Assembly (NCBI GenBank): GCA_017562135.1
Contig: QEYB01001210.1
Coordinates: 1 to 64,000 of the forward strand
Direction: 5' to 3'
DNA: 64,000 nt
Source of the DNA: Dipylidium caninum
Lineage: Eukaryota; Platyhelminthes; Cestoda; Cyclophyllidea; Dipylidiidae
Part shown: piece by piece, positions 1,533 through 62,070 of the stretch
Position numbering within the stretch: the first letter of the stretch is position 1
Layout: every line of letters starts with the position of its first letter
Translations under genes and position numbers: made by a program
Notes under the pieces: generated by a model
Told to the model about the DNA's origin: nothing
The model's input: only the letters and a program-made list of their open reading frames with translations
Database searches by the model: none

Positions 1533-4500
1533 GATGCGATCAGGCGTGGTGGCAGGTTGAGCGAAATAGGATAGGGCCGTCCGCCGCCAAAGCATTGTTC
1601 TCATGACTCGGTCGATGATTGCGAGGTTGCTTGGCTCGCAACCTTGGTTGCTTGATGTGTTGGTGTTGAAGAAGGGGAAGCGAGGGCGTGATGAAAAGTG
1701 TGGGAGGTTGAGGGAATTGTGAAGATGGAGGCCCGGTCCGCCGCGTGTGCAAAGCATTTGTCTTCGATTAGGCACTCGGATTCATGCGAGGTGATTGCGA
1801 GGTTGCTTGGGCTTGAGCACTTGGTGCATGGGAATACGTGGATGTGTGGGTGAAAAGGGGGAATGGGAATTTAACATGATGTGGGATGTGTGGTGTCGGA
1901 ATGAAGAAGGGTGAAGCGAAAGAGGTTGCTTGGCTCGCTTGATCACTTGTTGAGTGTGGGAGGTTGAGGGGAAATAGGATAGAGGCGTCCCGCCGCGTGT
2001 GCAAGCATATGTCTTCGATAGGCACTCGGATTCATGAGGTGATTGCGAGGTTGCTTGCTTCGCTTGATGCACTTGGTGCATGGGAATACGTGGATGTGTG
2101 AGTGTTGAAGAAGGGTGAAGCGAGGGCAGGATGAATTTCGAGTGTGGGAGGTTGAGGGGAATAGGATAGAGGCCGTCCGCCGCGTGTGCAAAAGCATTGT
2201 CTTCGATAGGCACTCGGATTCATGAGGTGATTGCGAGGTTGCTTGGGCTCGCTTGATGCACTTGGTGCCATGGGAAATACGTGGATGTGTGGTGTTGAAG
2301 AAGGGGGAGTGAGCGAGGAATCAGTGATGAAATTCGAGTGTGGGAGGTTGAGGGGAATAGGATAGAGGCCGTCCGCCGCGTGTGCAAAGCATTGTCTTCG
2401 ATAGGCACTCGGATTCATGAGGTGATTGCGAGGTTGTTGGCTCGCTTGATGCACTTGGTGCATGGAATACGCGTGGATGTGTGGTGTTGAAGAAGGGGGG
2501 TGAAGCGAGGGAATCAGTGATGAATTCGAGTGTGGGAGGTTGAGGGGAATAGGATAGAGGCCGTCCGCCGCGTGTGCAAAGCATTGTCTTCGATAGGCAC
2601 TCGGATTCATGAGGTGATTGCGAGGTTGCTTGGCTCGCTTTGATGCACTTGGTGCATGGGAAAATATCGTGGATAGGTGTGGTGTTGAAGAAGGGGGAAG
2701 CGAGAATCAGTGATGAATTCGAGTGTGGGAGGTTGAGGGGAATAGGATAGAGGCCGTCCGCCGCGTGTGCAAAGCATTGTCTTCGATAGGCACTCGGATT
2801 CATGGAGGTGATTGCGAGGTTGCTTGGCTCGCTTGATGCACTTGGTGCATGGAAATGCGTGGGGGGGAATCATGTGTGTAGGTGTTTGAAGATAAGGGTG
2901 AAGTGATGGAGAAATCAGTGATAGAATCGAGTGTGTGGGAGGTTGAGGGGAATAGGATAGAGGCCGTCCCGCCGCGTGTGCAAAGCATTGTCTTCGATAG
3001 GCACTCGGATTCATGAGGTGATTGCGAGGTTGCTTGGCTCGCTTGATGCACTTGGTGCATGGGAAATGCGTGGATGTGTGGTGTTTGAAGAAGGGGTGAA
3101 GCGAGGGAGGCAGTGATGAATTTCGGAGTGTGGGAGGTTTGAGGGGAATAGGATAGAGGCCGTCCGCCGCGTGTGCAAAGCATTGTCTTCGATAGGCACT
3201 CGGATTCCATGAGGTGATTGCGAGGTTGCTTGGCTCGCGTTTGAATGCACTTGGTGCATGGGAAATACGTGGATGTGTGGTGTTGAAGAAGGGTGAAGTG
3301 AGGAATCAGTGATGAATTCGAGTGTGGGAGGTTGAGGGGAATAGGATAGAGGCCGTCCGCCGCGTGTGCAAAGCATTGTCTTCGATAGGCACTCGGATTC
3401 ATGAGGTGATTGCGAGGTTGCTTGGCTCGCTTGATGCACTTGGTGCATGGGAATACGTGGATGTGTGGTGTTGAAGAAGGGTGAAGTGAGGCGAGGAATC
3501 AGTGATGAATTCGAGTGTGGGAGGTTGAAGGGGAATAGGATAGAGGCCGTCCGCCGCGTGTGCAAAGCATTGTCTTCGATAGGCACTCGGATTCATGAGG
3601 TGATTGCGAGGTTGCTTGGCTCGCTTGATGCACTTGGTGCATGGAAATACGTGGATGTGTAGTGTTGAAGAAGGGGGTGAAGCGAGGAATTCAGTGAGAA
3701 TTCGATGTGGGAGGTTGAGGGGAATAGGATAGAGGCCGTCCGCCCGTGTGCAAGCATTGTCTTCGATAGGCACTCGGATTCATGAGGTGATTGCGAGGTT
3801 GCTTGGCTCGCTTGATGCACTTGGTGCATGGGAAATACGTGGATGTGTGGTGTTGAAGAAGGGTGAAGTGAGGGAATCAGTGATGAATTCGAGTGTGGGA
3901 GGTTGAGGGGAATAGGATAGAGGCCGTCCGCCGCGTGTGCAAAGCATTGTCTTCGATAGGCACTCGGATTCATGAGGTGATTGCGAGGTTTGCTTGGCTC
4001 GCTTTGATGCACTTGGTGTATGGAAATGCGTGGATGTGTGGTGTTGAAGAAGGGTGAAGCGAGGGATGGGCAGTGATGAATTCGAGTGTGGGAGGTTGAG
4101 GGGAATAGGATAGAGGCCGTCCGCCGCGTGTGCAAAGCATTGTCTTCGATAGGCACTCGGATTCATGAGGTGATTGCGAGGTTGCTTGGCTCGCTTTGAT
4201 GCACTTGGTGCATGGAAATAGCGTGGATGTGTGGTGTTGAAGAAGGGTGAAGTGAGGGAGGAATCAGTGATGAATTCGGGTGTGGGAGGTTGAGGGGAAT
4301 AGGATAGAGGCCGTCCGCCGCGTGTGCAAAGCATTGTCTTCGATAGGCACTCGGATTCATGAGGTGATTGCGAGGTTGCTTGGCTCGCTTGATGCACTTG
4401 GTGCATGGGAAATGCGTGGATGTGTGGTGTTGAAGAAGGGTGAAGTGAGGGATCAGTGATGAATTCGAGTGTGGGAGGTTGAGGGGAATAGGATAGAGGC

Positions 4501-7500: not shown

Positions 7501-8634
7501 GTGTGCAAAGCATTGTCTTCGATAGGCACTCGGATTCATGAGGTGATTGCGAGGTTGCTTGGCTCGCTTGATGCACTTGGTGCATGGAAATGCGTGGATG
7601 TGTGGTGTTGAAGAAAGGGTGAAGTGAGGAGGGCAGTGATGAATTCGGTGTGGGAGGTTGAGGGGAATAGGATAGAGGCCGTCCGCCGCGTGTGCAAAGC
7701 ATTGTCTTCGATAGGCACTCGGAATTCATGAGGTGATTGCGAGGTTGCTTGGCTCGCTTGATGCACTTGGTGTGGGGAAATGCGTGGATGTGTGGTGTTG
7801 AAGAAGGGTGAAGTGAGGGAGGCAGTGATGAATTCGGGTGTGGGAGGTTGAGGGGAATAGGATAGAGGCCGTCCGCCGCGTGTGCAAAGCATTGTCTTCG
7901 ATAGGCACTCGGATTCATGAGGTGATTGCGAGGTTGCTTGGCTCGTTTGATGCACTTGGTGCATGGAAAATACGTGGATGTGTGGTGTTGAAGAAGGGGT
8001 GAAGTGAGGGAGGCAGTGATGAATTCGGGTGTGGGCGGTTGAGGGGAATAGGATAGAGGCCGTCCGCCGCGTGTGCAAGCATTGTCTTCGATAGGCACTC
8101 GGATTCATGAGGTGATTGCGAGGTTGCTTGGCTCGCTTGATGCACTTGGTGCATGGGAAATACGTGGATGTGTGGTGTTGAAAGAAGGGTGAAGTGAGGG
8201 AGGCAGTGATGAATTCGGGTGTGGGAGGTTGAGGGGAATAGGATAGAGGCCGTCCGCCGCGTGTGCAAAGCATTGTCTTCGATAGGCACTCGGATTCATG
8301 AGGTGATTGCGAGGTTGCTTGCTCGCTTGATGCACTTGGTGTATGGAAATACGTGGATGTGTGGTGTTGAAGAAGGGTGAAGTGAGGGAGGCAGTGATGA
8401 ATTCGGGTGTGGGAGGTTGAGGGGAATAGGATAGAGGCCCGTCCGCCGCGTGTGCAAAGCATTGTCTTCGATAGGCACTCGGATTCATGAGGTGATTGCG
8501 AGGGTTGCTTGGCTCGCTTGGTGCACTTGGTGCATGGAAATACGTGGATGTGTGGTGTTGAAGAAGGGTGAAGTGAGGGAGTCAGTGATGAATTCGAATG
8601 TGGGAGGTTGAGGGGAATAGGAATAGGAGGTCAG

Positions 8635-13774: not shown

Positions 13775-16500
13775 CGTTGCATTTGTCGATGTATTTAAAG
13801 AATGCCACGACGCACCCAGCGACCCCTGGCCAACAACTTGCACCTTCCAAAGAACTGCATTCACTGCTCTCACAAACTGACATCACAGCGACAACGGCCA
13901 AAGCTTTCTGCTCTGCACAACTTCATAAAGGTGGCTAGTGCTATTTTTTGCGAATTTTGCACACGCCCAACGGCTTCCTACACTCAAGTGTCTCCTTTCA
14001 CTCCAACTCGCCTCCCTTTCATTTCGCCCCATCGCGCCCCTCTGCCACCCTCATCGACAGTTTTGCTGGTAGATGATGGACCAAACTCTGACCTGTCCAC
14101 TGTCCCCTTGACATTCTAACTGAACTCCCCTTGGCCAGAGAGGGGTGTTCACGGTTGGCTGTGTCTTCCAGTTGGAGGCGTGCGCTAAATAATGAGGCTA
14201 CTGGGATGAAGTGGAAGAAAGAAGGCCAGTCACATGGAAACATCCGATGGGGGTTCCTCTTCGACACGGTGGTTTTGTCACCGCAAAGTTGCTTTGGTGT
14301 CCGCGCACTACGCCTTTTGCAGGAGGCAGTCTTGTCATGGCCGTCAACCAGGCACCTAGGCTTCGCGGTCTCGTGAAGCCTAGGTAGGAAACTTGATGAG
14401 AGGAAGGGAAAATGGTGGGGATCTGGGGCGTTCTACATACCGGTGTAATCGGGGTGGAGTAAAGGCCATTTACGTGTTGATGAAGGCAACTGAGTGCTGC
14501 AATTGTGAATAAATCGGCAAATTAATCCAATCAGTTGAACCCATCGACCTACCCATTCACGTGCATACCACTCTGTCGACCCCCTTGTCTTGCCTGAAGA
14601 CGTACTGACATTGTCGGGACAGAGTTGACATTGGGAGCGCAATACGCATGGACAGCATTCGTCATCTCTTTGACTGCATTGCTGAGTTGACGCTTAAGTG
14701 GAAAACCTGATTACCTCGGGAAGACGTCTCACTTCAGCCTAACAAACCGTCTCAGAGGCGTTCTCCCTGGTAAGGGACGATTGGACGAGCGATGTGGACT
14801 CCTCTGTCTGGCGTGGAGGACTGAACGCTGCCCAGCAATGCCAGCCAATGCGAACTGGCAGGAGTGACTACTTACAGGTGGGCGCTGGCGAGTGTCGTGT
14901 GGGAAGTTTGGTAAAGAAGGCGAACCGCCTTGGTGGGGTGGGGATAAAAGCGAGGAGGATGGCGGCCAGGAGACAAGCCACACACCGACGATAGACTCCT
15001 CCTCTGCTTATCAAGCTGGTACACGCTCCCTCCGTCGGCCTTCCCCAAGTCAATCAAACTGTATCTGTTTTGCTCGCTCACAGTGTTTACAATTTCATGT
15101 GGGCGTGACAAACAGTCTTGTCTGTGCTCATGAGTCAGCACTTGAGAAAGGGCGAAGCGAGTAGAGGAGTGTATGGTGTTTCGTAGAGTGGGATGAGAAG
15201 GAGGGAAATCTAAGAATAACGGTTGTCGTATCACGTGAAGATTTACTAAAATTGCTTGGTGAAAGCGCAGTTGGAAATGGTTCGAAAAATTTAAAGCAGA
15301 GGGTTCCGACCCTTTTGATTAACCTCGTTCTGTGCAACCGTCTTTGACTAACGACGATTTTGTTTAGACCATGTAAAGAGCAAGATCCTCTGCCCCAACA
15401 TCGGAGATCGTAGAAAACCTTAATCTAGTCAGAGAATCAGGGTGCCACATGAATAAATTGCTCGCTAAGGACGTAATCGAGCCCTCGTTCAAGCGGATGA
15501 TAACATGGAGTGAAAGTTGATTGCCTACTGAAAAATTACATATCAAAGAGCACATTGGGGACCAGGAGAAGGTAGCCCTTATACCTCTACAACCAAATTT
15601 ACCTCCGAATAAGGGAATATTGCGGTGTGTATGGTGGGGCACTCAAGGACTAATGGATTATGAAGAAGTATTGCCAGAAATTGGATGATTTCGTCATAGC
15701 AGTTGAAAAAAGAGGTCGACAATGTTCAAGAGGGAGAGCATCGTACTGAGTGAGAATAATGAGGAGCCAAATGCTACTTTCGGGACTCGTCAAAAATTTG
15801 AGAACGAGGCCGAGAGATTCGCCGACTTGCAACCATTTGAATATCATTTTTTCTTGTCCTCACAAATTTCATATGGCAGAGAAGAGTACGGAAATAAATA
15901 AGCTATTTAACAAGGACTGGTTGAACTTTTCACATTAATAAATGCAACGTTTTCAAAAATGGAGTATATAACTTGCTCTTAGGTCTACAAAGAGTCAGTT
16001 GTACATTACATAGTTGTTGGTGAGGAAAAATACAATTTGTTTTATGTCCAAACAGAGTTAAACTGTCCGACAAACCTCAGCCTGCTCCTCCTCCCCTTGC
16101 CACCTCTTCATCTCAGAACTTACGTCTTCATATCGCGCACCTCGCATCATCAGCTTCTCCGCTCACTTTCTCACTTTATTCGCACTCAAACGAGGTGGAG
16201 CCGTGGATGAGGGTGAGACGACTTGAGATACGGGCAGAATCCAGACTACTTTTTCCTCACCACAACTCCGTCCCCGTAGCTTGCGCGACTCAGGCAGTAG
16301 GAGCTTTGGAGGAGCGCATTCGCTCCACGGCATCCAGTAGAAGCGAATCGTCCCCATTTCCTCTCTTCCGTAAAAATGACCAGAGAACGTGGAGAAGTTT
16401 CCCATTCTATACCTTCAAACCCTTTCATCTCGCTTTCTTTTCCATATGTTGTTTTGCGACGGAATAAAGAAGACAACTCGTGGAATTCTTCCAATTTATT
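13775..16500 (+). repeat. Long interspersed repeat R1, copy 1
   Basis: Collinear with 37305-40560. Shared blocks along its length: AAAGCTTTCTGCT / AAGCTTTCTGCTTTGC near 13905 and 37425; GATGATGGACCA... / GGTGATGGACCA... near 14075 and 37590; AAGACGTCTCACTTCAGC near 14723 and 38212; GAGTGTCGTGTGGGAAG near 14890 and 38991; ATGGTGTTTCGTAGAGT near 15173 and 39276; GAGCAAGATCCTCTGCC near 15379 and 39493; AATAATGAGGAGCCA near 15755 and 39924; TCGCACTCAAACGAG near 16180 and 40380. Copy 2 carries about 610 bp extra (38345-38955). No coding domain is conserved between the copies, so it looks non-autonomous or very old. Confidence 0.85.
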
Positions 16501-37304: not shown

Positions 37305-40300
37305 GCATGTGTCGGTTTATTCGAAGAATGCTATGGTGCGCCCACTTACCCCACACAAACAACTTACACCTTCCATCGAACTGCATTCACTACCCCTCAA
37401 CCTTCCATTACCGTGACAACTGCCAAGCTTTCTGCTTTGCAAAACTTCATGGAGGTGGCCAACGCTAAGCCAACTTGACGAATTTTGCACACACCAAATC
37501 GTTTCCTACACTCAAGTTTTTCCTTTCTCTGCAATTCGCCTTCCTTTCATCCCTTCCACCTCCATCCTCATCGACCGTTTTGCTAGTCGGTGATGGACCA
37601 GGCACTGACTTGTCCACTGTCTCCTTGACCTTTTAACTCAACTCTCCTTGGACGGAGAGGTGGCCACGTTTGGATGAGACTGCTGAGACGAAGTGTGGGA
37701 AAGAAGGCGAGCCACATGGAAGAATCTGTTTCAAACTTCCTCTTCTGCACACCTGATTTGAGTGGTGATTTTGTCATCGCAAAGTCGTCTGGTGTCCGCG
37801 CAGAGGACAGTCTCGTCATGAATTTCAAACAGGTACTTCGGCTGCATGGTGGAAAACGTGATGAGATGTGGGAAAGAGGACGAGACCTGGGGCAGTACGC
37901 GTATCGGTGCAAGCGGAACGGAGTAAAGGACATTCCCTCGTTGATGAAGGCAAATGAGGCCACAGACGCTGAGACATGATGATTGCTGCTATTGTGGAGA
38001 ACTTTGTGACTTATTTCAGGCAATAGGGCCCGACGACCTACTCATCCACCTGCCTGCCAGTTTGCCTGCCCACTTGTCTGTCCTGAGGGCTTAATTACTT
38101 TGTTGAGACAGAGTTGACAGAGAGAAAACTATATGCCTGGACAACATTAGTCACCTCCTTGACTCTATTTTCTCAGGTGAAGTGTAAGTGGACGAAGTAA
38201 TTGCTTCGAGAAGACGTCTCACTTCAGCTCAACAAACCGTCTCAGAAGCGTTCACAATGGGAAAGGATGATTGGACGAGTGAGGTGGACTGGTCCGCCTG
38301 AAGAGGAGCAGTGAACGTTGCCCAACCGTGGCCGCCCATGTGGAATTGCCTCCATACAATTAACTAGCAGAGGGGGCGCCGATCAGGTCGAAGAACTCCC
38401 ACCTTGACAACCTCACTGGCTCAGAATACGTGTATCGTGGCTCTATGTGGCTTGCCTGTTCAGGAAGCAAAGGCGCAGATGATTAAACAGTGCAAAAAGT
38501 GGAGCCTATGGAACAGGAGGCGGAGTAGAGCAGGACTCGTCAGTGGAACGGGGAAGTAGGCTTCATGACACTGGCGAAGGCCATGTGAGTCGGGGCGTGT
38601 TGATGTAGGCTGGACGGCGTCGCTTCCACAAAAAGGGTCAGTAGTGAAGTATTTCCCATTCCAACTTTTTATCATCATTCCCCTCGTCCCTTTTCCCATA
38701 AGTGAATTTGCGACGTCACGGTTTACTTATGAATTCTTTCTCTTCTTGCTCCCCCGCAGCAGCAAGTGCTTAGAGGTGGAAGACGTGGCAAAATGAAACT
38801 CCGCTACAAACACTCCTCTTTGCATTATTCAATTTACAATCACATCTCAGTTCAACGTAAAATCGTTTAAAATGGAATTTTTGCACTTGGGCTTGCTTAC
38901 TCCTTCCCGACTTTGGACTCTACACATTTGTGCAACAAATAGGCGAAAGTGCGAACTCGGAAGATCGGCCAGACACAGGTGGGCGGCGGCGAGTGTCGTG
39001 TGGGAAGTTGGTAAAGAAGGCGAACCTCATTGGTAGGGTGAGGATAAAAGAGAGGGAGATGGCGGCCAGGAAACAATCCACATTCACCGATGATAGACTC
39101 ATTCTCTGCTCATTAAACTGTTAGGCGCTCCCTCCATCGGCCTTTCTCTAGTCGACCAAATGGATATGTTTTGTTACTCGCATTTTTTACAATTTCATGT
39201 AGGGTGACAAAACAGTCTTGTCTGTGCTCATGAGTAGGCACGTGAGAAAGGGAGAAGCAAGGAGTGTAGTGGCATGGTGTTTCGTAGAGTAAGGTGAGAA
39301 GGAAGGAAATCTAAGACTGTCGGTTGTAGCATCACGTAACAATTTTTTAAAAGTGTTTCGTGAAAAGCATAGTTCCTGATTGGACATAGGGAAGATGGTT
39401 TGCCAAATTTGAAGCAGGTGGTTCCCACCCTTTTGATAAGCTGCGTTCTGTGCAACCGTCTTTGATTGGCGACGGTCTTGTTTAGATCATGTAGGAGCAA
39501 GATCCTCTGCCGTCAACATCGGAGATCGTCGAAAGCCTTAATTTAGTCAGCGAACTAGTGCGAAAGATGGGTGGAGCGCCACATGAATAAACTGCTTGCT
39601 AAGAAACGTAATCGAGCCCTCCTTCAACCGTATGATAATATGGAGTGAATGTTGACTGCCTACTGAAAAATTCTATGTCAAAGTGCACATTGTGGGTCGG
39701 AAGAACGTAACCCTTTTGCCTTTACAACAAATTTAATTCCGAATAAGAGAATATTGAGGTGTGTATGGCGGGTCACTCAAGGACTAACGGATCATGACCC
39801 TTTGAAAGCGAACGAGAAGGCCCAACTGAAGAAGCATTGTCAGAATGTGGATGATTTTGTGAGAGGAGTCCAAAAAAGAGATTGACAATGTTTCAAGAGG
39901 GAGGGCATCGTATTGCATGAGGATAATGAGGAGCCACATGCTGCTTTGGGGACTCTTCAAAAGAGTAGAGAACGAGGTTAAAACATCTTGCCACGCCCAG
40001 CATATTCTCGGACTTGACACCTTTTGAATATCACTTTCTTATCTTCACAAAATGTTAAAGGGAAGAAGAGTACAGAAATGAAGAAGTTATTTAACAAGAA
40101 CTGGTTCGACTGTTCGCATTAACAGATGGAACATGTACAAAAATTGAGAGTACAAATTGCTCTTAGGTTGACAGAAGCTCAATTTTAATTAAAATAATTG
40201 ATGGCGAGGAAAGAATATAATTTGTTTTTTTTTTTCTCAAACACAATGAAAACTTTCTGATAAACCTCAGCCTCCTCCTCCTCCCTCCCTTGACACCTTT

Positions 40301-40560
40301 TCGTCCCAGAACTTATGTTCGCATATCGCGCACTTCGGACTATCAACTTCTCTCCACTCACTTCCTCCTCTCCGCTCTGTTCGCACTCAAACGAGATGGC
40401 ATCGTGGTCGAAGGGGAGACGACTTTCAAGTCTGTGCGTTCAGTGGGAGACAAGACGTCCTCGCCATGATTCCATCCCTCATAGCTTGCGCGACTCATGC
40501 AGTAAGAGCTTTCGAGGTTCGCATTTGTTCCACGCATCTGATGGAAGCTAATGGTTTAAA
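37305..40560 (+). repeat. Long interspersed repeat R1, copy 2
   Basis: The longest R1 copy, collinear with 13775-16500. It has an extra internal segment (about 38345-38955) that copy 1 lacks but that recurs at 32660-33050, so the longer form is probably ancestral. A T-run (40209-40217) lies within the 3' part. It is followed directly by an R2 copy. Confidence 0.85.
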
Positions 40561-40585
40561 GAAGACGTCAGCCTTGAACAAAAGC

Positions 40586-40850
40586 CAGTCATGGTTGACC
40601 AGTGAGCTCGTAGACCACTGGACTACTCACAATTGACGACTAATCTCCTCTCTTTACACTCTCAAGTGCCTGCTCGTCTGAACATTTGCACTGTAATCGA
40701 AAGAAAGCGACCGACGTTGGGGCCTATTTAAGGCTCTGCCACGGTGCTTCCCTTAGATCCAACCGAATAGGCCCTACAAGTGGCACTTCCCATTCCGTCC
40801 TTTCTTACTGCACTCGGTACTGAGTGGTATGGAAATGCTGGCTGAAGAGG
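40586..40850 (+). repeat. Interspersed repeat R2, copy 3
   Basis: Matches the R2 copies at 18360 and 42880: GTTGACCAGTGAGC, CACTGGACTACTCACAATTG, the box TATTTAAGG at 40725-40733, CCACGGTGCTTCC, CCAACCGAATAGGCCCTACAA and GGAAATGC. It abuts R1 copy 2 on its left. Confidence 0.75.
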
Positions 40851-41727
40851 AGTTGGTCGAAGAAGCCGAATGGAATGTGGAGCAGCCATACTTTCGTGCT
40901 CCTTAGTACCCCCTCTCTTGCCTGGAAGACTAACTGTCTTGACACCATCAAATTCTTCTTTCAGCCCAGCGCTCGATTGTTCCATCACCTTGATGACGAG
41001 AGAATACTACGAAACTCATCGTTGTCAGGCTTTCCAGCTTGGTAGTATTCATTTTCTAATTTAGCCATGTTGGTAGCTTATTAATTCGGGGCAGAAATGG
41101 AAGAGTATGTGACTTCCACATTGGATTTCGGGCCGAATGTGCTACTGAAGAAGGCGAGCAGGACAAAGTAGACTGCGTCCAACATTAGTGAATTGCAAGC
41201 TTACAGTCACCCCATTGTTTCTACTTGTTTGAGCTTTAACGGAACGAAATTGAAGATGTCCGTGCCCGTTTAATCATCCAATTCGCCTATTGCCTCAGTA
41301 TTCACCTAAATATCTGTAGCGATGTCGCGCACTTCGCAACAAAATACTGCACCCGTGAAGATTGCCCATGTAGAAGCCTTCGTCATCGATGACGTGATAT
41401 GCTCAAACGTAAGTGTCGAATGTTTAGCCAGGGTTCACGTGGAATGCAGTGCATGACGCCCTTGAGATCGCAAGCACTATGAAAAGCTTACCTTCCCCAC
41501 AGATCGTGAACAGGAGGAGAGGCACCCACTCAGCCTTTGAAGCTGTTTGTCTGTCGATCAAAAGAATGTTAGCCTGTTAGCAACAGCTGCATCCATCCAT
41601 TCTCAATGTGACTTTAGGATACACTGAAAAACCACATTCTCCATGTTGGTCCACACGACTAAAGTAGGTCGAAACACTCCGAAATCTGTTGAAATTGAGC
41701 GACATGGGGAAAACAAGCTGAGATGAA
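40851..41727. other. Gene-free stretch
   Basis: No gene or repeat recognised on either strand. Confidence 0.4.
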
Positions 41728-47196: not shown

Positions 47197-47490
47197 AAGT
47201 GAAGACGTCTTACAAAATAGGTCATCGCGCATATCGGAGGAGAGAGCGTCTCAGCTTCCTCGTTCGTGCGGCAGCAGAGAGTTAGACAATAAGACTGGGT
47301 GAGAAATGGGAGCATGAAGTTAGTCCACACTACAAGCAACTAGAATGCAGTAAGTAAACCGTGTAGACTGATTGACGTGTCAGAACGCCATATGAATGAA
47401 TGCGTGCACTCCATGACGAAGGATGCAGAGCGGAGCAATGTCGAGTTAAATAGCCACTGAGAAGGCACCTGTTGACCTACTTCAGACCGG

Positions 47491-47497
47491 ATAAATA
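47491..47497 (+). promoter_or_regulatory. Probable TATA box of the two-domain glycoprotein gene
   Basis: ATAAATA, 44 bases upstream of the ATG at 47535. This would place the transcript start near 47520, giving a very short 5' leader. Confidence 0.4.
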
Positions 47498-47534
47498 GAA
47501 AGCAAACGTGACAAAGGCCTCAACTGCACGGCAA

Positions 47535-50500
47535 ATGGTGGGAAAAGCAGCCTTCCTCTTCTTCGCGTACATCTGCGTACACATAAGTAAGTGTTGCCTT
47601 CGGTCCTTTATACAACACTCGACGCATTCACTTAACACCTCTCTAAGAACCATAAATCCCATTGTCACACCTCTAAGTCACTTGATTTTGCATTGCATTG
47701 ATGGCATTCGATGGCAGTGTGGGTAAACTAAGCAGACTTACCTTCATCGCGCGCTTGAGGGGAACAACGTCAGGCCAGACTGAAACCAACTTACACGGGA
47801 GGAATTTTCACTTGGGTAGTGGGGCGAGACAACTGGCATTTAAAAGGTTCGAGCAGAAGTAGGAGGCGGCGGGGGAGGGGGAGCGGCGAAATCAGTTGTC
47901 GAACACCGTGTGATTGCGAGCAATGTCGGTGACGTGTTTGCTACGCTCTCTATGCAGACACACAGTTTGCAGTGCTTGCAAATAAAAGCAGAATCGTGAG
48001 TGGCCCAATCAACAGTACGTTCTCGATCAATTGCTCACTGCCCGGCGAATACGACGTAAGTTGACTTCTCCCCATCACGGTATCCTTGGCTTTCATCAGT
48101 GTCATGCCCTTTTCGCTTCCTCAACTAGGAAGTTTGCGTAAACATCGTGCCCGAGTTACCTGACTGCTTTATAATAGCAAACGACCAATGTTCCAACGAA
48201 TATTTCCAATGTTCCTACACTCAGAGTGAGTTCTAGTGCATTCATCTCTTACACGAACACTCACCACCGACGCCACCAACACCAAATCGCCTCTCTACTC
48301 TTCCACATACTTAAAAATTTCTTCTTGCTCCCTTAGTCTCAAGTTCTCACGCAGAAGTGCAGATGACCGGCGTTATTCGTCAAAATATGACCTGGATAGT
48401 CTTCTATCCAAAGCGATCATCTAAAATTCACATGTCCATTGCTGTATTTCCTGATGGGGTGTGGAGCCCCTCGGTTACTGGTGAGTCGTTATGCGTGCAA
48501 CTTCACCAATCCACATGTTTGACATGTCTCAGGCAATTAAGAGTCTTTCTCACTTGCCTTTCAAGGCCTCGTTATGAATCCGCATCAGTCCCTCTTCATT
48601 GACGCGAAGGATAAGGACATGGTGACAGTCATGTGTGACTACCACAAAGCCACTAAGTGGGTGAGTCCATCTCATAGTCTGCCTCATCTATCTGGATGGG
48701 TCTGGACAGACTTGCGACTTAAACCCTGCTCCGCACATCTCTTGCCCCCACAACTTACAAATGTAATAAATGCTTTCGTATATACCTAGATAGGCATGGT
48801 GGTGGGCACCGATTCATCGGACGTTTACACGGTTGGAGGTGGTATCGTTGAAAACAATGTCGCCAAATATCCGCAAATAGTCAGCGTCAGTAAGATAAAT
48901 AAAATGAATCGTCGATATTTGATGTTAGTGCAATGCTATTTGAATGACTACTCAAATTCGTATTGGCCTTTCTTTTTGGAGGAAACAGTACAGACGAGAA
49001 CTTTGTGAATTTCACAATAAAATTGAGGAGGACAAGCCCTGTCGACTACCTCGGATGCCTGTATGAAGACTTCGACGTGGAAGGAGCGGTATTCAAGATA
49101 GACTGGGACAGATCAGACTGGACTACGGGAACGGGGAATCATTCGTTCTCAGTGGAACCACACGGCCACTCTTTCTCTACCATATCAGCTGACGATTGTG
49201 AGTGGTTGAAATGCAAAGTGCTTGCATCACACCTCTCCTCCCAACATGTTCAAATCTGATTTTATTTTCTTACCTACCTCAAGCGACTCATACTACCGCG
49301 GTGTCTGAGGCAGGAAATCTGCAGTTTTTAGGTGGATGTGGTGATGGCGAGTTTGGGTTGTACTCTAACACAGCCACCGTCGCAAATTGGGACCATTTTA
49401 GACGCTAATCGCACAGCTGCAAGTGAAAGAAGTGAAGCCAGAATCGTTAGTGGCCCAATAAATAGCACCTTCTCCTATCACCTTCACCCTACCAGGCGAA
49501 TATGTGGTAGGGTGACACTTCACACAGGTTTCCGTGGATTTCAAGGTTGACATTTATTTTTGTTTTCACATATAGAGAGTATGTGTGGACATCTTGTCCG
49601 GCGAATCTCAATGCAACGAAATAAGTGACGACAATTGTTCCACCGAATATTTTGACTGCTCCTACACTCAGTGTGCGTTTTATTTCACTTCCCAACCTAC
49701 ATGCCATACACACGCTCCACTGACTTGCTAACACTTTTTACCTCCTGCTGCTTCCTCAGTCTCTGTTCGCCACGCAGAGGTACAGATACCGGCTTTATTC
49801 GTCCAAATATATCGTGGATTGTCTTCTACTCCAACAGCTATTTCCGAATTCCCATTCCCATTGCTGTATTTCCTAATGGAGTGTGGCGATCCTCGGGCTT
49901 TGGTGAGTATTCATGGGTGTAACCTCATTACTTCAGCTATTTATTTTGTCACAAACAACTAACCGCCTTCCGCATTTGCCTTCTAAGGCCTCGTTATGCA
50001 TCCGAATGAGACTCTCTTCATTGCCGCAATGAATAAGGAAACGGTGACAGTCACATGCAGATACCATATTAAGACTGAGTGGGTGAGTGTACCATGCTGT
50101 CTGCCTCGCCTATAACGGGCCTCCAGATACCTCCAAATTCATCTGTAATTCCCTAATTTTTGCCTCCACACCTTAAGTATAATAATTTTCTTTGCGTCTG
50201 CTTAGATGGAGATGGTGATAGGCACCAGTTCATCCGGGTTTTACAATGTTTGGGATGGTACTATTTTCAACGATACGTATATCTATCCCGAACTAGTCGG
50301 AATCAGTAAGCTAAACCGGGGTCATCGTTGGCCCCGATGATTAGGCATGTCTACTCTAACAGCGGCCTTTCTATTCGCAATGCAGGGAACAGTACGGACG
50401 AAAATTTCGTGAATTACACGATAGAAGTGAAGAGGAGAGAAGCTGTTGATTACCTTGGATGCTTGTATGGTTTATATGAAAGAACTGGTGCCGTCTTCAA

Positions 50501-52095
50501 AATAGATTGGGGTAAGTCAAGCCACCGGTGATTTTGGTCGCATAGATTACACAGCTCCACTTCCAACATTCCTAACGTCTTAGTAACTTGACGACTTAAA
50601 TGCTGCTCACCGCTTTTCGTCAATGGAAACCTGGTCTCGCAGGGTTCCCCCGACCTCAGTTTTTGCCACTCACCCCCTTCCCACCACTTACTGCACCCAA
50701 ATGCCAATGGTCTCAGCCATCACCAATAGTGATGAAATGATGGAAATCAACTACAACTGAATCCGCATTTAAGCCACCCATTCCAAGTGCGTAATTCCTC
50801 TTCTTGCTGTCTTAGGCGAAAATGTCCCTCAATTCTCTTACTCCTCCTCCTCTTCCCCCCCTGCCTCTGTCTTCGCTAGTGCACTTCCTGACAATCGTGA
50901 GTTGTTTGAAACTCCTACGTTCATGAATCGTACCTCCTCAACTTTCTCTTTCTATCATCCTACCTAGCTCAAACGACTTCGACTGGGCCGAGTGTGACAA
51001 CAGGTAAATGGGAATTTATTCATTGATGGTAATGATGACGACCATTTTCATCATAAAGCTTCGCTACCGAATTGTCTACTTCCCTACCCGAATAACGTTT
51101 TAACTGCCGCTTAGTGTAGTCACCACATCGTCAGGTCAGATATACCCCCCTCAACATTTGCCAATTATGTCTTCACATCACCTACAACCCCTCAATCGTA
51201 ACTCTCCCCAATTCTTGACAACAGTGGTGAAACAATGAAAAGCAGCTCAACGGCATCTCCATTGTACCTAGCCCCTCCAACTGCGTAATATCTCTTCTCG
51301 CTGTCTTAGATGACGCGACCTCTCTATTGAAACAGCCACTTAGGATTTTTGAGTCCATGGAATTTAGGGTGAATTAAATAGCGTAAGTGTTTTGTAAGAC
51401 CTCAATAAGCAAAAATGTGAAGCTTCGTAGATGTATACTCCTCAGAGTGAATGCTATGCGAGGATCAAGTTGGGTAGTGGGCTTGTGCACAGGTAATACG
51501 TCTCCGCTGCAACGTGACGTTGACAAACGTGTTCGTAATGTCGTCAGAACAATGCGTTTCTAGGCGGACAACTTCGCATTTCCACTGCGAGAGTCTCATT
51601 ATACTGGGTGCCGTCAGTTAACAGGCCTTGCCGATGTTAGAGCCGAAAGAGCTGGGCCACTAAATCATCCATCTCAAATTCGTTCACACACAATTAACAA
51701 TACGGTCTTGGACGATTTTAGACGACACAGGCACAACTTATTTGTGCAACCATCTCTCTAACTGTGTTTCATCAGATCCACTCTCCTCTGAACTCCTTCC
51801 GCCTTCCATAAACCAGACGACTTCCGGTTGTGCAATCAGTAAAACCGGTGAGTACGTGTCTATTTCCTCTGTATTAATTCAATACCTCACGTGTCTATCA
51901 CTCTGACTGACCTTAATGTCTATTGGTCATTCCTTTGTGCTGCCAATCAGTTTACCCGATTGTTTCCTTTCAGCCTCTTTTCTCCTCATTCTGGCATGCC
52001 TGTTGATGTGTAAGTGGTTCTTCCTATTTTCCCCTCCGAGGTAGTTCGTAATGCTAACACTTCCTGCCCCTTAACTTCAAACAGTCTTCATCTAA
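47535..52095 (+). CDS. Two-domain GPI-anchored surface glycoprotein (GP50-like candidate)
   Basis: Exon model, all introns GT-AG: 47535-47586, 47973-48055, 48129-48225, 48337-48480, 48566-48660, 48790-48889, 48982-49197, 49417-49511, 49576-49672, 49786-49902, 49988-50082, 50206-50305, 50386-50511, 50816-50896, 50968-51003, 51120-51134, 51776-51847, 51974-52009, 52085-52095. These join in frame to 555 codons plus TAA. Exon 1 is a signal peptide (MVGKAAFLFFAYICVHI). Exons 2-7 and 8-13 are two copies of one ectodomain: SGPINST, four Cys around EYFxCSYTQ, TxWIVFY and IAVFPxGVW, MVTVMC / TVTVTC, and NSTDENFVNxTI then VDYLGCLY and AVFKIDW. Each copy has seven Cys and several N-glycosylation sites. 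Small phase-1 exons then encode a Ser/Thr/Pro stalk. The last residues, ASFLLILACLLMFFI, are hydrophobic with no cytoplasmic tail after SGCAISKTG, as in a GPI-anchor signal. Known tapeworm GP50 antigens are GPI-anchored glycoproteins of about one such domain; the family name here is my inference. The exact use of the 15-base exon and the exon 7/8 junction are uncertain. Confidence 0.72.
47973..49313 (+). repeat. Intragenic duplication, ectodomain unit 1
   Basis: Six exons of unit 1 plus its following introns. Exon lengths are 83, 97, 144, 95, 100 and 216 bases. Introns as well as exons align to unit 2, showing duplication at DNA level. The unit ends near 49313 in a degenerate version of the 36-base stalk exon: the position equivalent to the donor after ACAACAG is GAAATC instead of GTAAAT, and the aligned acceptor TAG has become TAC. 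The stalk exon of unit 1 therefore seems lost. Confidence 0.85.
49417..51003 (+). repeat. Intragenic duplication, ectodomain unit 2
   Basis: Exon lengths are 95, 97, 117, 95, 100 and 126, then stalk exons of 81 and 36. Four of the six are identical in length to unit 1 or differ only by exon splitting. In unit 1 the last exon reads on for 90 bases where unit 2 has a donor after KIDWG and a separate 81-base exon. Unit 2 has no signal-peptide exon of its own, and unit 1 has no anchor exon, so the two most simply form one gene. Confidence 0.85.
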
Positions 52096-54429
52096 TCTTG
52101 ACACATCGTCTGGTCTAGGGGTTGTGTCAATGGAGACTACGTTCGTTAGAAGTTCGTTGTTGTTAACATCGTCAACTATCGCCCTCTTCTTTTCACAAAC
52201 TCTCACGCTCTTTTGTGAGGTGTTCTGTTGTGTGATGTCAAATGGAGTAGTTAGAGGATAAGGCCATGGCCTTTCAACTAATTACATGGGCCCCCTTATT
52301 CAAACCAAGTGAAGATTGATTATTACTTTGTTGCCCCAGTAACAGGGGGTAGTAGCCTCTCCTGTAGAACTCCAGATCTGTGGAGGTGTTTGCATTCGAG
52401 ACTAACTACTTAGAACTGGAGGAGAGGAGGTTACTATTCCGATGTCCTCGCAACTTTAATTAGTTTCATAACAGATGTTATTCAGTGATGGCAAACCTCT
52501 TCGTTAAACCTACGCAATTCTGCTGTTGTTGCTATTTGAGAGAGTAAGGGGACGATTCGGTGTTGGAGTTGTCGATGATGAAAGGTACGACCTTTAACCG
52601 AGGAATGTAGAGCAATAATTGAAATTGAAATATTGAAATATTCGGTGGAACATTCGACCTCTCTTATTAACCTGCAGTGAGGCTTTTCAGACGATATGTT
52701 TACACAAAGTCGTTAGTGAAAGCAACGAAAACTCGCTGACGCCACTCTCCAACATACGTCGTATTTGCCCGGAAGTGAAAAATTGATCAAGGATATGTTG
52801 TTGATCTTGGCCGCCTGCGACACTGCTATCATTTGTATTAACTGTCAATTGAACACCTTAAATGCAGTGGTTTTGGCAATCGTCTTCTTCCCCATTTTCC
52901 ATTTTTACCAGAAATTCCCACATCGTCCGGTCTACCTTCTTCTTCGTCTACCTCCCTCCGTTTCCTCTACATGCTCCCCCTCACGTTTCTGGCATACAGG
53001 ATGGCGATTGCCTGTGGATATTATCCCGGCAACACCAAACACCGCCGCCAGCTGTTGATTTCGCAAAACTAACCTCGAACAGCGCCTTTTTTGGTGTCTT
53101 ACCAAGCCATTATTTCTACTCAACGGAGACAATTTTCATGAAGACTTTCAATAGGCATCTGAGATGCCCTCGTCGAGACATAGGAGGATAAATGGCTTGT
53201 GATCGAGACGATGGACCAATGCCCGAGAATAATTGCCTTTGGTTATTCACCTCCCCTCAATTCAGTGGGTAGAAGTTGCACCTTGCCAGTAAGATGCGCG
53301 TGATAGTTGTAGCGAGGATAGTGAATCAGTGAGTCTGTACATGTACCTGTGAGTTTTGCAACCTACAGTCAAGGATGCTTGAATAAACCAGGGATGAGAG
53401 ACTGTGAACAAAAATATTACGTGGGCAGTTGACTGGCTTGACCTACCCCAATCTATCTTTTAGACCGCGCTTTGACTTTCATAAGAGCCATATAAGCAAC
53501 CGAGGTAATCAACAGGTGCTTTTCTCCTCACTTCTATTGTGAAATTCATAAATTTTGCATCCGCACTTTTTCTTTCAAATAGAGCATCCAAAATGAGTTA
53601 GTGCAGTTATTCATATGGAAGGGTCCAAGAATCATGTGTCAGCAATACCTTCGATTTGGCTTACTGATGGCAACTATTTCCAGATAGAGGGATGTAGAGT
53701 CGGCAGATGAATGATTCCAAAAGCGATAAACTTTGGGTGCACGAGTGTCCAACACTACCTCAATCTGGGCAAAATTCAAAAATTTTTATTGCATATTTCA
53801 GACATAGAGACAAAAGATGTAGCAATTACTGTGAAGTTGCAGGGCTGGCGAGATTTAGCTAGATAAATACGCCACACTACCTCGTACACTCACCCTCTCA
53901 GTCGTAAGGTGGCATCTGCACGTGACTGTCACCGTTCCTTTATTTTAAGGGTCGATGAAGAGAGAGTAGTTTGGATCCCTAACGAGGCGGCATGACAAAT
54001 AAATGGAGTGATGAGTTTGTACCTGAGCTCGTGGCTGAGTTCTAAGATATGTAACCCCGGGGCGTGTCTGTGCATTTCTCAATTCGCAATAATTCCGAAA
54101 ATGCCATTCGACGCCGTGATCAACGACCACGTTAAGGTAGATGGCTGGAGGATGTTCAACGTTGAGCATTCCGCTATTGGAGTCGAACATGAAACGCATT
54201 ACCCGAAAATATCCTTTTACACTCATGCGAAGATTTCAGTTTATCCCAAAATATGACAGGCAACAAAACGTCCACAATTTATCTCTCCGTAGCAGATGAA
54301 GTGGAGGTGAAGGAAGGCAGGCGTGTGCCAGATGCGAATGCTGGGATAATGGATGATTTATGAAAATGTTTAGAGAACCGTGTTAAAGTTTTGGGTTGGG
54401 CATACAAAATACGTCGTCGGAGATGGTGC
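52096..54429. other. Gene-free stretch
   Basis: No gene recognised after the end of the glycoprotein gene. A plus frame at 52765-53058 contains a hydrophobic stretch (AVVLAIVFFPIF) but no supported start or splice sites. Confidence 0.4.
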
Positions 54430-58420: not shown

Positions 58421-60164
58421 AATTATTTCAAACTGGTGTATTTTACAACGCCATGCCTTGAGGAGGTAGGATTTGAGCGCCTTTACTAGAGTGATGCAAA
58501 GGACCTCGTTTGCACGTACTGGCATCGAAGATCCTTCCCCTTTTCTTGATGTATCCACCTTAAGAATGGCTGATGATGAGGTGAGGCTGTTAGAGAGGTG
58601 ATATCTTGAGTGGAAATTGTATATATATTATGACCGCTGGTAGTAATGACTGGCAAGAGATATCTCATCTAATCCACACTAAGGTTACATTTTGCTATTG
58701 AAATCATTATTCCATGAATGGCAGACTGTGAAATAAGAGGCATGTGGCATCCTTGTCTATGAGAGTAGATAAGCATTTCCATATAAGGGGATATTAGCTG
58801 TGCTGATTACGCTTTCTTAGGCGTATGTAGGGGATGTGGCAGAGTTCAGAGGCTTCAATCTTCGTAGGAGTGGATAGTTGTTGTTGAGGTATGGGCTTGT
58901 GCATGTGTTATCATCTGTATTCCCCGAGTGGTTGGGGCTTGTGCGAAGAGGTGAGCGAGGCCACTGACCTGTGGGCGGTTATCCTGACTTTTCGGCAGTG
59001 CTATTTGACTGTGGAGACTCATAAATGTGAGCGTTTTGTTGTCAGCAGTTTTCTGGTCACTGTGTGGTTTACTGGGAGTGAGGGAAGGCGACGTGCCCAG
59101 TTAGTGGAGGGAGTTAATGTGCAGTGGGAGTGTGGGTGGGTGGGTGGATTTGCTTTGGCAGTGGTGTATGCTGCCTGATTGAGTGAGTGAGTGGATGGGT
59201 GAGTGAGTGAGCGAGGGAGGGAGCGACTTTTAGGTTGATTTGAAGGTTTAGTTGTTTTACAAGCGTTAACGAAATATGCCCTTTATAGGCGTATTAATAT
59301 ACCTGCGTCTCCGTCTCTGTCTGCGTGTCTATCTTCACATGGAACGCCTTGTGATGACACATAATCAAGTGAGTTCCTCACATTGGTGGCTTGCAGCGTC
59401 GAGATTTGACGACGGTTTGATCTTGGTGGAAGATTAACAGCCTTACGGAGGAGAATGAACAAAAGTGGAGCACATGAACGAAAGCTTAGACAATAAACTA
59501 ACTCCCAGACCATGTAACTCCCGAAACAGTAAATAAAACATTTCTGTACTACTTACTATAATTAGAGTACTATGGGGGTCATGAAATAAAAAAATAACAC
59601 TCTACAGATAAGGAAAGCCAATAATTGGAGTATGCGAAAACAATCGCACATACCCCAGATTAAAAATACAACTGATTCATATGGTTAATCGTTGGAAACC
59701 TGACTGCAATACGCTGCATCAGACCAAGAAATTATCAGAATCATTTCCTTCTATATCCTTCTTTATACATATTATTTTTTCAAACACGAAAGGGTCTTCC
59801 ATATAATCGAAAAAGTCGCCAAATTGACCTTTCACCCTAGCTCCTGGCATTTGGTGTGTCCTTTTGAAAACCAAAGAACGTCGTTTCAGGGGGATACTTA
59901 AACCTCGCACATGCTAACATACTGTGTGTTGTCTGATCAGTGTCATCAGCAAAGTTAGGTTTCGACTTTATTCGAGCAGAAGCCCGGTAAATGCGACAAT
60001 AAGGAAAGCATGTACGTAGGTTCATATAATGCGGCATTTCAATGGGTTGCCAATAGACGAAGAAATAAGTCTGCATGAAAAACTCGAGGCATTGCACCAT
60101 GATATGATATTCGAGAATGACAGGAAACGCAAAAACGTAGGATACATTGACGGAAGGTGGCTTT
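58421..60164. other. Sequence between the direct repeats
   Basis: About 1.7 kb without a recognisable polyprotein. It includes a GTGA-rich microsatellite (59179-59223) and an open minus frame at 59719-59910. A plus frame from the ATG at 60029 (MRHFNGLPIDEEISLHEKL, then NDRKRKNVGYIDG) has protein-like composition and runs into the right repeat. If the flanking repeats are terminal repeats, this would be the internal part of a non-autonomous element. Confidence 0.35.
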
Positions 60165-60670
60165 CACAGCCTCGAGTGGGTGCTGCCATAAGATGTGTTG
60201 CCAGCCTGTCTTGAGTTCTCTCTTGTAGAGGATTTGACGTAGCTTTATTTGATGCAAAGAGTGTTCCCACTAAGATGTGACATCCGCCTTTGGTTGGCAT
60301 CTCTTTAAATCGTTCTGCTCTTGCGGATATGGCTTTCATTGGATGTGGACAATTTGGTTTGACAAATGCTCCTCCCTTCTAGTCGAATTATCTGAAATGA
60401 TAAGAGTTGAGTAGAGGAGCACCACAAGTGTGGTGAGCGAGCACATGCAAGTTGGTCTTAACATTTCATTCCGGAAGCAGTGTTTTTTACGGGCGTGTGT
60501 CTGGTGTGTGTGGGTAGGTAAGTAGGAGTTGCCGGTGTAGCCCCGAGACCTAACCGCGAAGGACGATAGTTGATGCTGCCCCCGATGTAAGAACAAGTCG
60601 TCTATCTATCTATCTATTTTGGGACATATTTTTGACTAACACCATTATTATTGCATTGCTCTATTTTTGC
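60165..60670 (+). repeat. Direct repeat, right copy (possible terminal repeat)
   Basis: Same orientation as 57864-58420, about 2.3 kb downstream. It ends in a short (TATC)n run (60601-60617) where the left copy has TTATTTATCCATATT. The copies are diverged by many substitutions, so if this is an element it is old. Confidence 0.9.
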
Positions 60671-61045
60671 ACCTCGTGAGTGCGTCCAACCTGCTGTTGA
60701 TGAAGCTGGAGTACTCCACTTCCTTTATTCTGGAGATGAAGAAGAAGTGGCTACAGGATGTGCGAGAAAGGGGATGTGACATAGGCGAGTAGAAGGTAGC
60801 CACTTTCCAGGCGAAAGGTGCGAAGCAGGTGGTCGCAGTCTTTCGGTATGTGACACGTGAAAAGGGACTTGGAAAAGCGAGCGACATTTGCCATGAGGGT
60901 GGGAGCGAGATGCAATCAGAAGATAGAGGAGACGAGGGAGTCACTTGCCCATGGTCGCCGTAGGCTCTAATGGCTCGCCTGCAGGCTACGGTTGAAATGG
61001 GTGCTGACTCTCACCTTTTCTCCTCCCGCAGCAGGGAACAAGGTG
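60671..61045. other. Gene-free stretch
   Basis: No gene recognised. Confidence 0.4.
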
Positions 61046-61110
61046 ACAGGACAGGCAGGCAGGCGCATGCAGGCAGGCAGGCAGGCAGGAGGCAGGCAGG
61101 CAGGCAGGCC
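61046..61110. repeat. (CAGG)n microsatellite
   Basis: Imperfect array of CAGG units with interruptions (GCATGCAGG, GGAGG). Confidence 0.95.
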
Positions 61111-61460
61111 AATGGGAAGAGGCTTGACTGACGTGGAGGTGATTTTGACCTTTGTGCTGCCCATATGACATAAAAAAAGAGAGAATGCGAGGCGAGTGAC
61201 GCGATGCACACACGGCGAGTGGGCGTGTCTGTGAGGTTATTGGAGAGAAGGAGAAGTGCTCTGCGTTGTATGACCTCTCACTTGACCATAGTATTGTGGA
61301 CAGACAGACTGCACTTATCCGCACCAACAATGAGAAGAAGAGTGAGGAGAAGCGCAAATCAGTGGTTAGGGCAAACGCGGCCTCGCCTTAGTCTCATGTG
61401 TGAGGAAAGTGCTCGCGATGTGGAGTGGTAATGCCAGAGTCGACTTGTTACAAGATGATG

Positions 61461-62070
61461 GCTCAAAGGAGGAGTCTGAGGATAACCAGAAGCATTGATA
61501 GGAGAAAAGAGAGAAGAAGAAGAAGAAGAAAAAAGGAGAAGGAGAAGGACACGAATGATGCGGGACGAGGGGGATTGTGGGTCAAATAAGGGAATAGACA
61601 AAGGAAAAGGAAGGGAAGGGTGGAAAGGGGGGAGGGGAGGGGAGGGAAGAATGAAGGAATGAGGGCAAATAGAGGGCGAGGAAATGGTCTATTCACTCTC
61701 ACCTGAATTGATATCGAGGGCGAATAATAAGGTTGACAGGCGGGCCTTCAGTGACTTGAATCAGTAGAGATGTGCACTTTGCAAAAGGTGCTGCAGGAGA
61801 GAGAATGGGCTAATGGTGAGTGGCGAGAGAAGTAGATTGGGCTTAGTTGATTTATGGAGTTATCGCAGTTGTAGCCAAATGTGTGACGAGAGCAGGAGCA
61901 AACCAAATTGGTAGAAGAAGGTCGGGATTAGACTGCGCGAAGATATTGGCAGATACAGATGCAGAAGCAGAAGCGAAGGGAAGACGAAGGCGAAAACCAA
62001 GGTGAGGGCGTTTCCATGAACGGGTCGGCAGTTCGGGTAGCGGTTAGACTAGTGAGCTTGCCAAGTGGCG
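61461..62070 (-). repeat. Inverted repeat, right arm
   Basis: Reverse-complement partner of 57089-57667, with landmarks given there. The stretch 61500-61640 is purine-rich (GAA, GGA and GGGGA runs), where the left arm is pyrimidine-rich on the plus strand. Confidence 0.9.

Follow-up and report, generated by a model that had tools for sequence, protein, structure and literature searches.

The locus between positions 47,535 and 52,095 of the window, the 64,000-nucleotide stretch of the Dipylidium caninum genome analysed here, raises the question of whether two successive ectodomain units between one set of terminal exons belong to a single protein. An exon-profile scan gave one signal-type exon, two six-exon units and one stalk/anchor set, in that order, as the preliminary description had proposed. 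Its two proposed absences were also borne out, as the scan found neither a second signal exon between the units nor an anchor exon after unit 1. The gene model has 18 exons, where about 19 had been counted, and every splice site in it is GT-AG. The full two-unit plan is present in nine loci and part of it in five others. The features are as follows ("scan" denotes the exon-profile scan).

47336..47534, + strand, upstream block common to one-unit and two-unit copies (alignments of 11 diverged loci start at 47332-47348)
47535..47586, + strand, exon 1, signal-type, from ATG to donor GT (profile match 79 bits)
47958..48055, + strand, unit 1 exon 2, bearing an extra first cysteine (scan)
48129..48225, + strand, unit 1 exon 3 (scan)
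48337..48480, + strand, unit 1 exon 4, site of the switch from unit 1 to unit 2 in single-unit relatives (scan)
48566..48660, + strand, unit 1 exon 5 (scan)
48790..48889, + strand, unit 1 exon 6 (scan)
48982..49197, + strand, unit 1 exon 7 (scan)
49284..49506, + strand, fused joint exon: stalk-like exon 8 without donor GT, about 100 source-less bases, then unit 2 exon 2
49576..49672, + strand, unit 2 exon 3 (scan)
49760..49902, + strand, unit 2 exon 4, one base shorter than in copy C688, frame broken in the window
49988..50082, + strand, unit 2 exon 5 (scan)
50206..50305, + strand, unit 2 exon 6 (scan)
50386..50511, + strand, unit 2 exon 7 (scan)
50816..50896, + strand, stalk exon, Ser/Pro-rich
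50968..51003, + strand, exon 8, stalk, Ser/Thr-rich (scan)
51776..51847, + strand, exon 9, stalk, with a Cys close to the presumed anchor site (scan)
51974..52009, + strand, exon 10, C-terminal hydrophobic segment, GPI-signal-like (scan; hydropathy of the C688 counterpart)
52085..52095, + strand, exon 11, final residues and stop (acceptor and stop both altered in C688 and C814)
52633..53988, - strand, inverted relic of a related gene, broken, with exons 5, 6, 7, then 2, 3 (scan)

The upstream block is likely to be a 5' leader with a putative promoter. The signal-type exon 1 is found in 12 of the 13 other aligned copies, with one additional base in C474; most of the exon is missing from C823. 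The number of cysteines, given earlier as seven per ectodomain, is correct for unit 1 only: unit 2 has six in the window lineage, where the first one is absent, and eight in C688. The C688 model contains fifteen N-glycosylation sequons. Judged by hydropathy only, its N-terminus peaks at 1.89 against an interior maximum of 1.68, and its C-terminus, in a copy that has lost the last splice, is hydrophobic (peak 2.61) after a stretch of small residues.

The way in which the two units are connected differs from the earlier proposal, in which 49197 was joined to an exon starting at 49417. AGs that keep the frame of that junction precede both 49402 and 49417 in the window, but both acceptors are missing in C477, C508, C688 and C814, and a junction at either was rejected; the open exon starts at 49284. 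From this position the joint exon forms a single open block of 221 bases in 10 of the 13 other copies, and the window exon (49284-49506) is two bases longer. The stalk-like exon runs directly into the first exon of unit 2 with no donor between them, and in most copies the resulting exon carries a cysteine of its own. The role of exon 8 is unsure, because its donor is also non-GT in the single-unit loci C12 and C727. The idea that the joint is an exonised intron was discarded, as similarity to the exon-8 region is limited to its start (score 31, against 26 for the best of 200 shuffles), and a search for the source of the following 100 or so bases found none. The joint DNA is present at 14 places in the genome, all 14 candidates having been scored, and each place is a locus that has both units or portions of both; this is more than chance would give.

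The alignment of the two units, at 66.6% across 1,094 columns, is likewise beyond chance, and in C688 they share 54% protein identity. The gene had been described as internally duplicated. In the tree, unit 1 and unit 2 form two separate clades, and the arrangement is therefore better described as a fusion of diverged paralogues than as a recent internal duplication.

Copy C688 is open as assembled through both units and the stalk, 581 codons without a stop, and 16 of its 17 introns are GT-AG. Its last acceptor and its stop codon have been lost, so its C-terminus must differ from the model, and none of the full-length copies is intact to the modelled stop. Somewhere in the assembled sequence the frame is broken in eight of the nine full-length copies, including that of the window; the joint exon itself is interrupted in the window copy, C297, C477 and C342. 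With conserved splice sites, the window frame breaks because its joint exon exceeds that of the ten open copies by two bases and because exon 4 of unit 2 has one base fewer than its C688 counterpart; the exon phases do not join in frame throughout as had been claimed. A permissive choice of AG and GT gives an open path through the window gene, but part of unit 2 is then out of its relatives' frame. Most of the breaks appear to be recent or to be errors, since C396 and its 99% twin C327 differ by 7 coding substitutions and 7 small coding indels, whereas C396 and C688 differ by 141 and 3, respectively. Assembly error or recent decay is thus indicated as the cause of the breaks in the eight copies. 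The assembly contains several near-identical contigs and many small indels. Genes with three units were considered for C212, C474 and C544, in which a third unit seemed to be present, and were rejected; stalk or anchor exons were not found in the stretch taken around each of these loci, and the apparent third unit of C212 is preceded by a degenerate start region of its own.

The effect of selection was estimated from dN/dS. Between C688 and C327 the ratio was 0.34 for unit 1, 0.29 for the joint exon and 0.37 for unit 2; at most 0.55% of 2,000 bootstraps reached 1 in any part, and the off-frame controls gave 0.75-1.28. Between C327 and C544 the three ratios were 0.51, 0.47 and 0.49, and 0.9-2.4% of the bootstraps gave 1 or more. 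As the joint is borne by both members of each pair, this selection has acted since the fusion. No constraint was apparent on the joint exon between C688 and C544 (1.06; off-frame 0.47 and 0.97) or between C688 and C477 (1.95, from about 7 changes only), and the ratio for unit 2 against C297, 0.46, was barely below its off-frame values of 0.61 and 0.71. Purifying selection on unit 1, the joint exon and unit 2 is thus indicated by the comparison of C688 with C327, the other comparisons being weaker.

We consider it probable that the 14 copies constitute a subfamily in which each gene encodes or formerly encoded a single glycoprotein, secreted and membrane-anchored, with a tandem pair of ectodomains. 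The exon order, the common joint, the one copy open through both units and the stalk, and the constraint on both units and (between two lineages) on the joint exon all point to such a product. In a fusion that most likely happened once, a gene of the unit 1 type would have been joined to another, diverged paralogue (unit 2), with loss of the anchor exons of the first gene and the signal exon of the second. The donor-less stalk-like exon at the joint would be translated continuously with the first exon of unit 2, so that a linker of about 50 residues results. If the gene is transcribed as one mRNA, its single signal peptide would direct the chain into the secretory pathway, its single C-terminal hydrophobic signal would anchor it, most likely by GPI, and the two ectodomains would be displayed on one stalk, presumably exposed to the host. 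The single fused product that had been proposed is thus supported at the level of the family, with C688 open and purifying selection between C688 and C327; this support does not extend to the window copy, a member of the subfamily whose frame is interrupted as assembled.

Other products have to be weighed against this one. The window copy and its near twins may have decayed, or may encode a short, anchorless secreted protein that comprises the signal, the whole of unit 1 and a portion of the joint exon and stops short of unit 2; by arithmetic from the exon lengths, the assembled window frame closes about 308 residues in, within the joint exon. Breaks in eight of the nine full-length copies would agree with either outcome, as would the GP50-type proteins without an anchor that are reported in the excerpts available from PMC5634658 and PMC4836691. 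We regard this as unlikely. The joint exon is open in C327 and C192, near-identical to the window copy, though both break elsewhere; unit 2 is constrained between lineages; and the small indels between C396 and C327 are about as frequent in coding DNA (7 in 1,819 sites) as in noncoding DNA (7 in 2,734 sites), as sequencing error would give. It seems very improbable that there are two transcripts, one closed after unit 1 by a retained intron or by early polyadenylation and the other a downstream cistron for unit 2, expressed, for example, via spliced-leader trans-splicing. Flatworms do use such splicing, according to the available part of PMC12582326, and the intron between exon 7 and the joint exon would allow an alternative end for unit 1, but no signal exon or start block belonging to unit 2 was found, and in 10 of 13 other copies the frame that unit 1 sets continues open through the joint exon. 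That two tandem genes were merged in assembly, one having lost its anchor exons in the process and the other its signal exon, has been largely refuted already and is hardly credible. Near-identical contigs and small indels are what would make such an artefact conceivable; against it, 14 contigs carry this joint at 81-100% identity, and one misassembly would not recur with an identical open exon of 221 bases.

The preliminary description had allowed for relatives with one unit, and the loci taken include six close single-unit loci, found by the exon-profile scan, and three outgroup loci, each showing a single unit within 5 kb; the exon set is incomplete in two of the three. Among the six, only C12 and C727 have units open through exons 2-7. 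All six are hybrids, unit 1-like on the left and unit 2-like on the right, and they change over within exon 4 at almost the same point. A single clade of single-unit loci was rejected: three blocks were analysed with 200 bootstrap trees each, and no tree recovered it. The disagreement of the three blocks on C508 and on C303/C456 is a sign of exchange.

These hybrids bear on the origin of the gene and leave its proposed product unaffected. It is possible, though we lean against it, that no two genes were fused and that an ancestral single-unit gene instead took up an entire unit, in register, within its exon 4. The common place of the switch in all six relatives and the single unit of each outgroup locus would fit such an insertion, as would the position of C727 and C816 outside all two-unit rows in both half-gene trees. 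It is opposed by C12/C472, which group with lineage C in both halves (left 94/94, right 89/98), and by C303/C456, which are placed next to lineages A and B (86/85) and together with A (90/92). As these single-unit loci lie among two-unit lineages, collapse of two-unit genes fits better than insertion, with moderate support: longer blocks move some loci, and paralogues exchanging sequence might also produce this pattern. The first cysteine of unit 1 and the cysteine of the new linker are both present in five, and both absent from two, of the seven two-unit loci readable at both positions. A more speculative and rather doubtful scheme is one of switching between one-headed and two-headed forms, in which a single fusion was copied at least 14 times, in-register exchange at exon 4 repeatedly made single-unit hybrids, and the two-headed form gained this cysteine pair, which may form a fusion-specific disulfide fixing the two heads.

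GP50 of T. solium was reportedly described by Hancock in 2004. Membership of the GP50 family is plausible here from plan, length and taxon. GP50 is a GPI-anchored diagnostic glycoprotein of Taenia and its relatives, with 298 residues for TmGP50 in the excerpts available from PMC5131396, and the likeness would lie in one putative signal peptide, a putative C-terminal anchor signal and N-glycosylation sites; the single-unit relatives found here have about 285-315 residues (285 in C12, counted up to the end of exon 10, and about 315 in C727, whose frame changes close to the end). Heavy duplication is another likeness, as GP50 is described in the part of PMC5036155 consulted as a tapeworm family of this kind, and at least 194 exon-level matches in the present genome indicate an expanded multigene family in a tapeworm of taeniid type. 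GP50 has one ectodomain and about 300 residues, whereas the present gene has two units, a joint exon with its own cysteine in most copies, and 581 codons in C688. The family also varies in its anchor: the accessible text of PMC5634658 reports a truncated T. solium form without the GPI site, which is one shortened unit as against two here, and that of PMC4836691 reports an anchor in only one of six highly expressed GP50s of E. multilocularis. No two-unit GP50 was among the matches listed for GP50 terms in the full-text literature, a search covering few subscription papers, or in the GP50 text consulted. By analogy of description and not of sequence, the TGM family of the nematode Heligmosomoides polygyrus is also a parasite multigene family shaped by exon modularity, as outlined in the available part of PMC10516467.

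GP50-type proteins are used in the diagnosis of larval tapeworm infection and their exact biological roles are open, according to the same portion of PMC5036155. If a two-ectodomain version has been kept under selection, the counting of the family and the choice of antigens would change, and a functional model would have to account for reach, for bivalent binding or for a new epitope where the units join. Through the exon 4 switch that the relatives have in common, the number of units becomes a trait of the family that can be measured.

With an early C688 junction model as query, a protein search gave no relative at E<=0.001 among 7,997 scored candidates, and the olfactomedin domain PF02191 scored 14.8 bits against a gathering threshold of 23.9; one of seven single units matched this domain, at E 0.051. 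No Pfam family scored above the cut-off for the gene product or for single units, and no relative of the unit profile was found in the PDB. Two primer patterns from a GP50 paper gave matches at chance level only, the best match of one search lying in an unrelated place. The TPI exon of the genome had its best PDB match in 6oog, presumably the Taenia solium entry, at 180.6 bits, the next match scoring 142.4.

The assembly (106.3 Mb, 920 contigs) was searched, and exon profiles, based on as many as 13 copies, were scanned over 21 loci, each named here by its contig (the window is C396). In the PDB, a triosephosphate isomerase exon of this assembly is matched best by 6oog, the Taenia solium enzyme (180.6 bits, against 142.4 for the runner-up), which makes a taeniid-type tapeworm likely. 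Exon 1 is signal-type, exons 2-7 form the ectodomain unit and exons 8-10 the stalk and anchor. The order 1-(2-7)-(2-7)-8-9-10 was found in nine loci: C396, C327, C192, C297, C477, C508, C688, C342 and C814. The plan put forward in the preliminary description, ie one signal exon, two six-exon ectodomain copies and one stalk and anchor, is thus confirmed in the window and in eight other loci; there it had been taken to encode a single fused, GP50-like protein. One-unit family members, a possibility that it raised, were also found among the fetched loci: the order 1-(2-7)-8-9-10 is seen in six (C303, C456, C12, C727, C472 and C816), and three outgroup loci have a single unit within 5 kb (C469, plus C657 and C735, whose exon sets are incomplete). 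Exons 8-10 were not found within the fetched stretches of C474, C212 and C544, though two units are present. C470 is cut short, parts within C823 are deleted, and C338 reaches the end of its own contig. An additional unit lies downstream of the two-unit gene in C474, C212 and C544 (loci L017, L018 and L019), preceded in C212 by a degenerate start.

The window gene model has GT-AG at every splice site. It contains a joint exon between the units which the preliminary description missed, having placed an intron from 49197 to 49417. That intron is untenable: the frame-keeping AGs before 49402 and 49417 are both missing in C477, C508, C688 and C814. The joint is a single exon, running from an acceptor before 49284 to a donor after 49506. 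As assembled, ten of the 13 other copies (C327, C192, C508, C688, C814, C474, C212, C544, C470 and C823) carry it with 221 bases and an open, common frame, and it is broken in the remaining three, C297, C477 and C342; the window exon has two extra bases, which break its frame. Joint DNA has 14 matches genome-wide, at 81-100% identity (all 14 candidates scored), and these coincide with the 14 loci that contain two units, whole or in part. At the family level there is a fair to good case for a subfamily, 14 copies in all, of genes predicted to encode tapeworm surface proteins with two ectodomains. The start of the joint exon is similar to exon 8 and its preceding intron (score 31, compared with 26 or less in 200 shuffles). 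No GT follows the exon-8-like stretch in the window or the 13 aligned copies, and a source for the roughly 100 bases after it was looked for and not found.

The gene had been taken for an internal duplication. A midpoint-rooted tree built on exons 3-7 separates the 15 first-unit rows (including C338, of unknown unit number) from the 13 second-unit rows, each set forming a clade (support 100/100 and 97/100, respectively), and the two units of C688 share 54% protein identity. The gene is therefore better described as a fusion of diverged paralogues. Compared with the window, the six single-unit loci match at 80-86% in the 5' block and 82-92% in the unit-2 block of exons 4-7, and at just 66-72% in the unit-1 block. 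All 18 comparisons (six loci, three references) place the switch from unit-1-like to unit-2-like sequence within exon 4, somewhere from about base 19 to base 51. In half-gene trees C12/C472 group with lineage C on both sides (left 94/94, right 89/98). C303/C456 are placed next to lineages A and B in the left-half tree (86/85) and with A in the right-half tree (90/92); C727/C816 fall outside the A, B and C groupings on both sides. Longer blocks including introns agree in part with these trees: C303/C456 group with C823 and C470 in the left block (100/99), and the 3' block joins C508 to C472 and C12. None of three blocks yields a clade defined by unit number; their strong branches require at least 3, 2 and 2 changes. 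The simplest reading is one fusion, after which several lineages collapsed to single-unit hybrids at a favoured place. Alternatively, a gene with one unit may have received a single insertion, after which paralogues exchanged sequence.

Eight of the nine full-length two-unit copies are broken somewhere as assembled. The window copy is one of these and is not intact as assembled; its frame breaks a second time within unit 2 exon 4. In C688 an open frame of 581 codons spans the two units and the stalk, and 16 of the 17 introns are GT-AG. At the last intron of C688 and C814 the final-exon acceptor is AT, and the stop codon is altered as well, so that the true C-terminus of C688 is uncertain; read-through into that intron would give a different protein end in both. 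Among near twins of the window copy, small indels differ from copy to copy. Between C396 and C327 there are 7 coding substitutions and 7 small coding indels, compared with 12 and 7 in noncoding DNA; for C396 and C688 the coding counts are 141 and 3. These counts fit assembly error or very recent decay, with no preference between the two, and not long-standing loss. Exons 2-7 are not open throughout in four of the six single-unit loci. The two-unit copy C342 (L015) has 37 small coding indels relative to the window, and its adjoining 3' part is 98% identical; it looks like a poorly corrected contig.

dN/dS was calculated with gap-touched codons excluded, using 2,000 bootstraps and two wrong frames as controls. 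Between C688 and C327, which each carry the joint, the ratio was 0.34 for unit 1, 0.29 for the joint exon and 0.37 for unit 2 (bootstrap share at or above 1: 0.0005, 0.0055 and 0.0035, respectively), with 0.75-1.28 in the wrong frames and little constraint on the stalk (0.96). The corresponding values were 0.37, 0.29 and 0.46 for C688 and C297, the last slightly below the off-frame 0.61 and 0.71, and 0.51, 0.47 and 0.49 for C327 and C544. For C688 and C544 they were 0.43, 1.06 and 0.47, ie the joint exon is unconstrained in this pair; between C688 and C477 it gave 1.95, on about 7 changes.

Seven cysteines had been counted in each unit. This holds for unit 1; unit 2 has six in the window lineage and eight in C688. 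The extra cysteine of unit 1 exon 2 is missing in the single-unit loci C12, C472 and C727 and in all three outgroups. Seven two-unit loci could be read both there and at the cysteine in the new part of the linker, the other seven being dropped with one or both places out of frame. Five carry both cysteines (C327, C508, C688, C470, and C823 despite a stop earlier in its exon 2) and two carry neither (C212 and C544). Because they are present or absent together, our guess is that they may form a fusion-specific disulfide.

TmGP50 is described as having 298 residues and a 16-residue signal (PMC5131396), compared with 285 up to exon 10 in the single-unit relative C12 and about 315 in C727, whose frame is changed near the end. 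No Pfam family scored above its cut-off (the best, olfactomedin, gave 14.8 against 23.9 bits), PDB sequence searches returned nothing below E 0.12, and none of 7,997 candidates scored from a large protein collection reached E 0.001, some of these queries being an earlier junction model of C688. Since these searches gave no relative, the gene is called GP50-like and is not filed as a GP50 member. For the two-unit genes, expression and anchoring are predictions from sequence, and GP50 identity is putative.

The surroundings of the gene in the window include:
570-8622, large tandem array with a unit of about 190 bases
38000-41000, multi-copy flank with at least 71 genome matches
52633-53988, minus strand, inverted, stop-interrupted relic of a related gene (exons 5, 6, 7, then 2, 3; exon-profile scan)
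58500-61500, multi-copy flank with at least 123 genome matches

The array is possibly a satellite close to a chromosome end. The flank at 38000-41000 has a second, partial copy at 14545-16351. On the upstream side the window is colinear with C327, C297, C477 and C192, which marks these contigs as either recent segmental duplicates or haplotypes left unmerged. Inverted exon matches comparable to the relic lie behind C327, C192, C477, C688, C342 and C814. In C469 exon-level family matches are scattered over 50-136 kb, apparently a large cluster of divergent genes; the one locus examined there (L034) has one unit.
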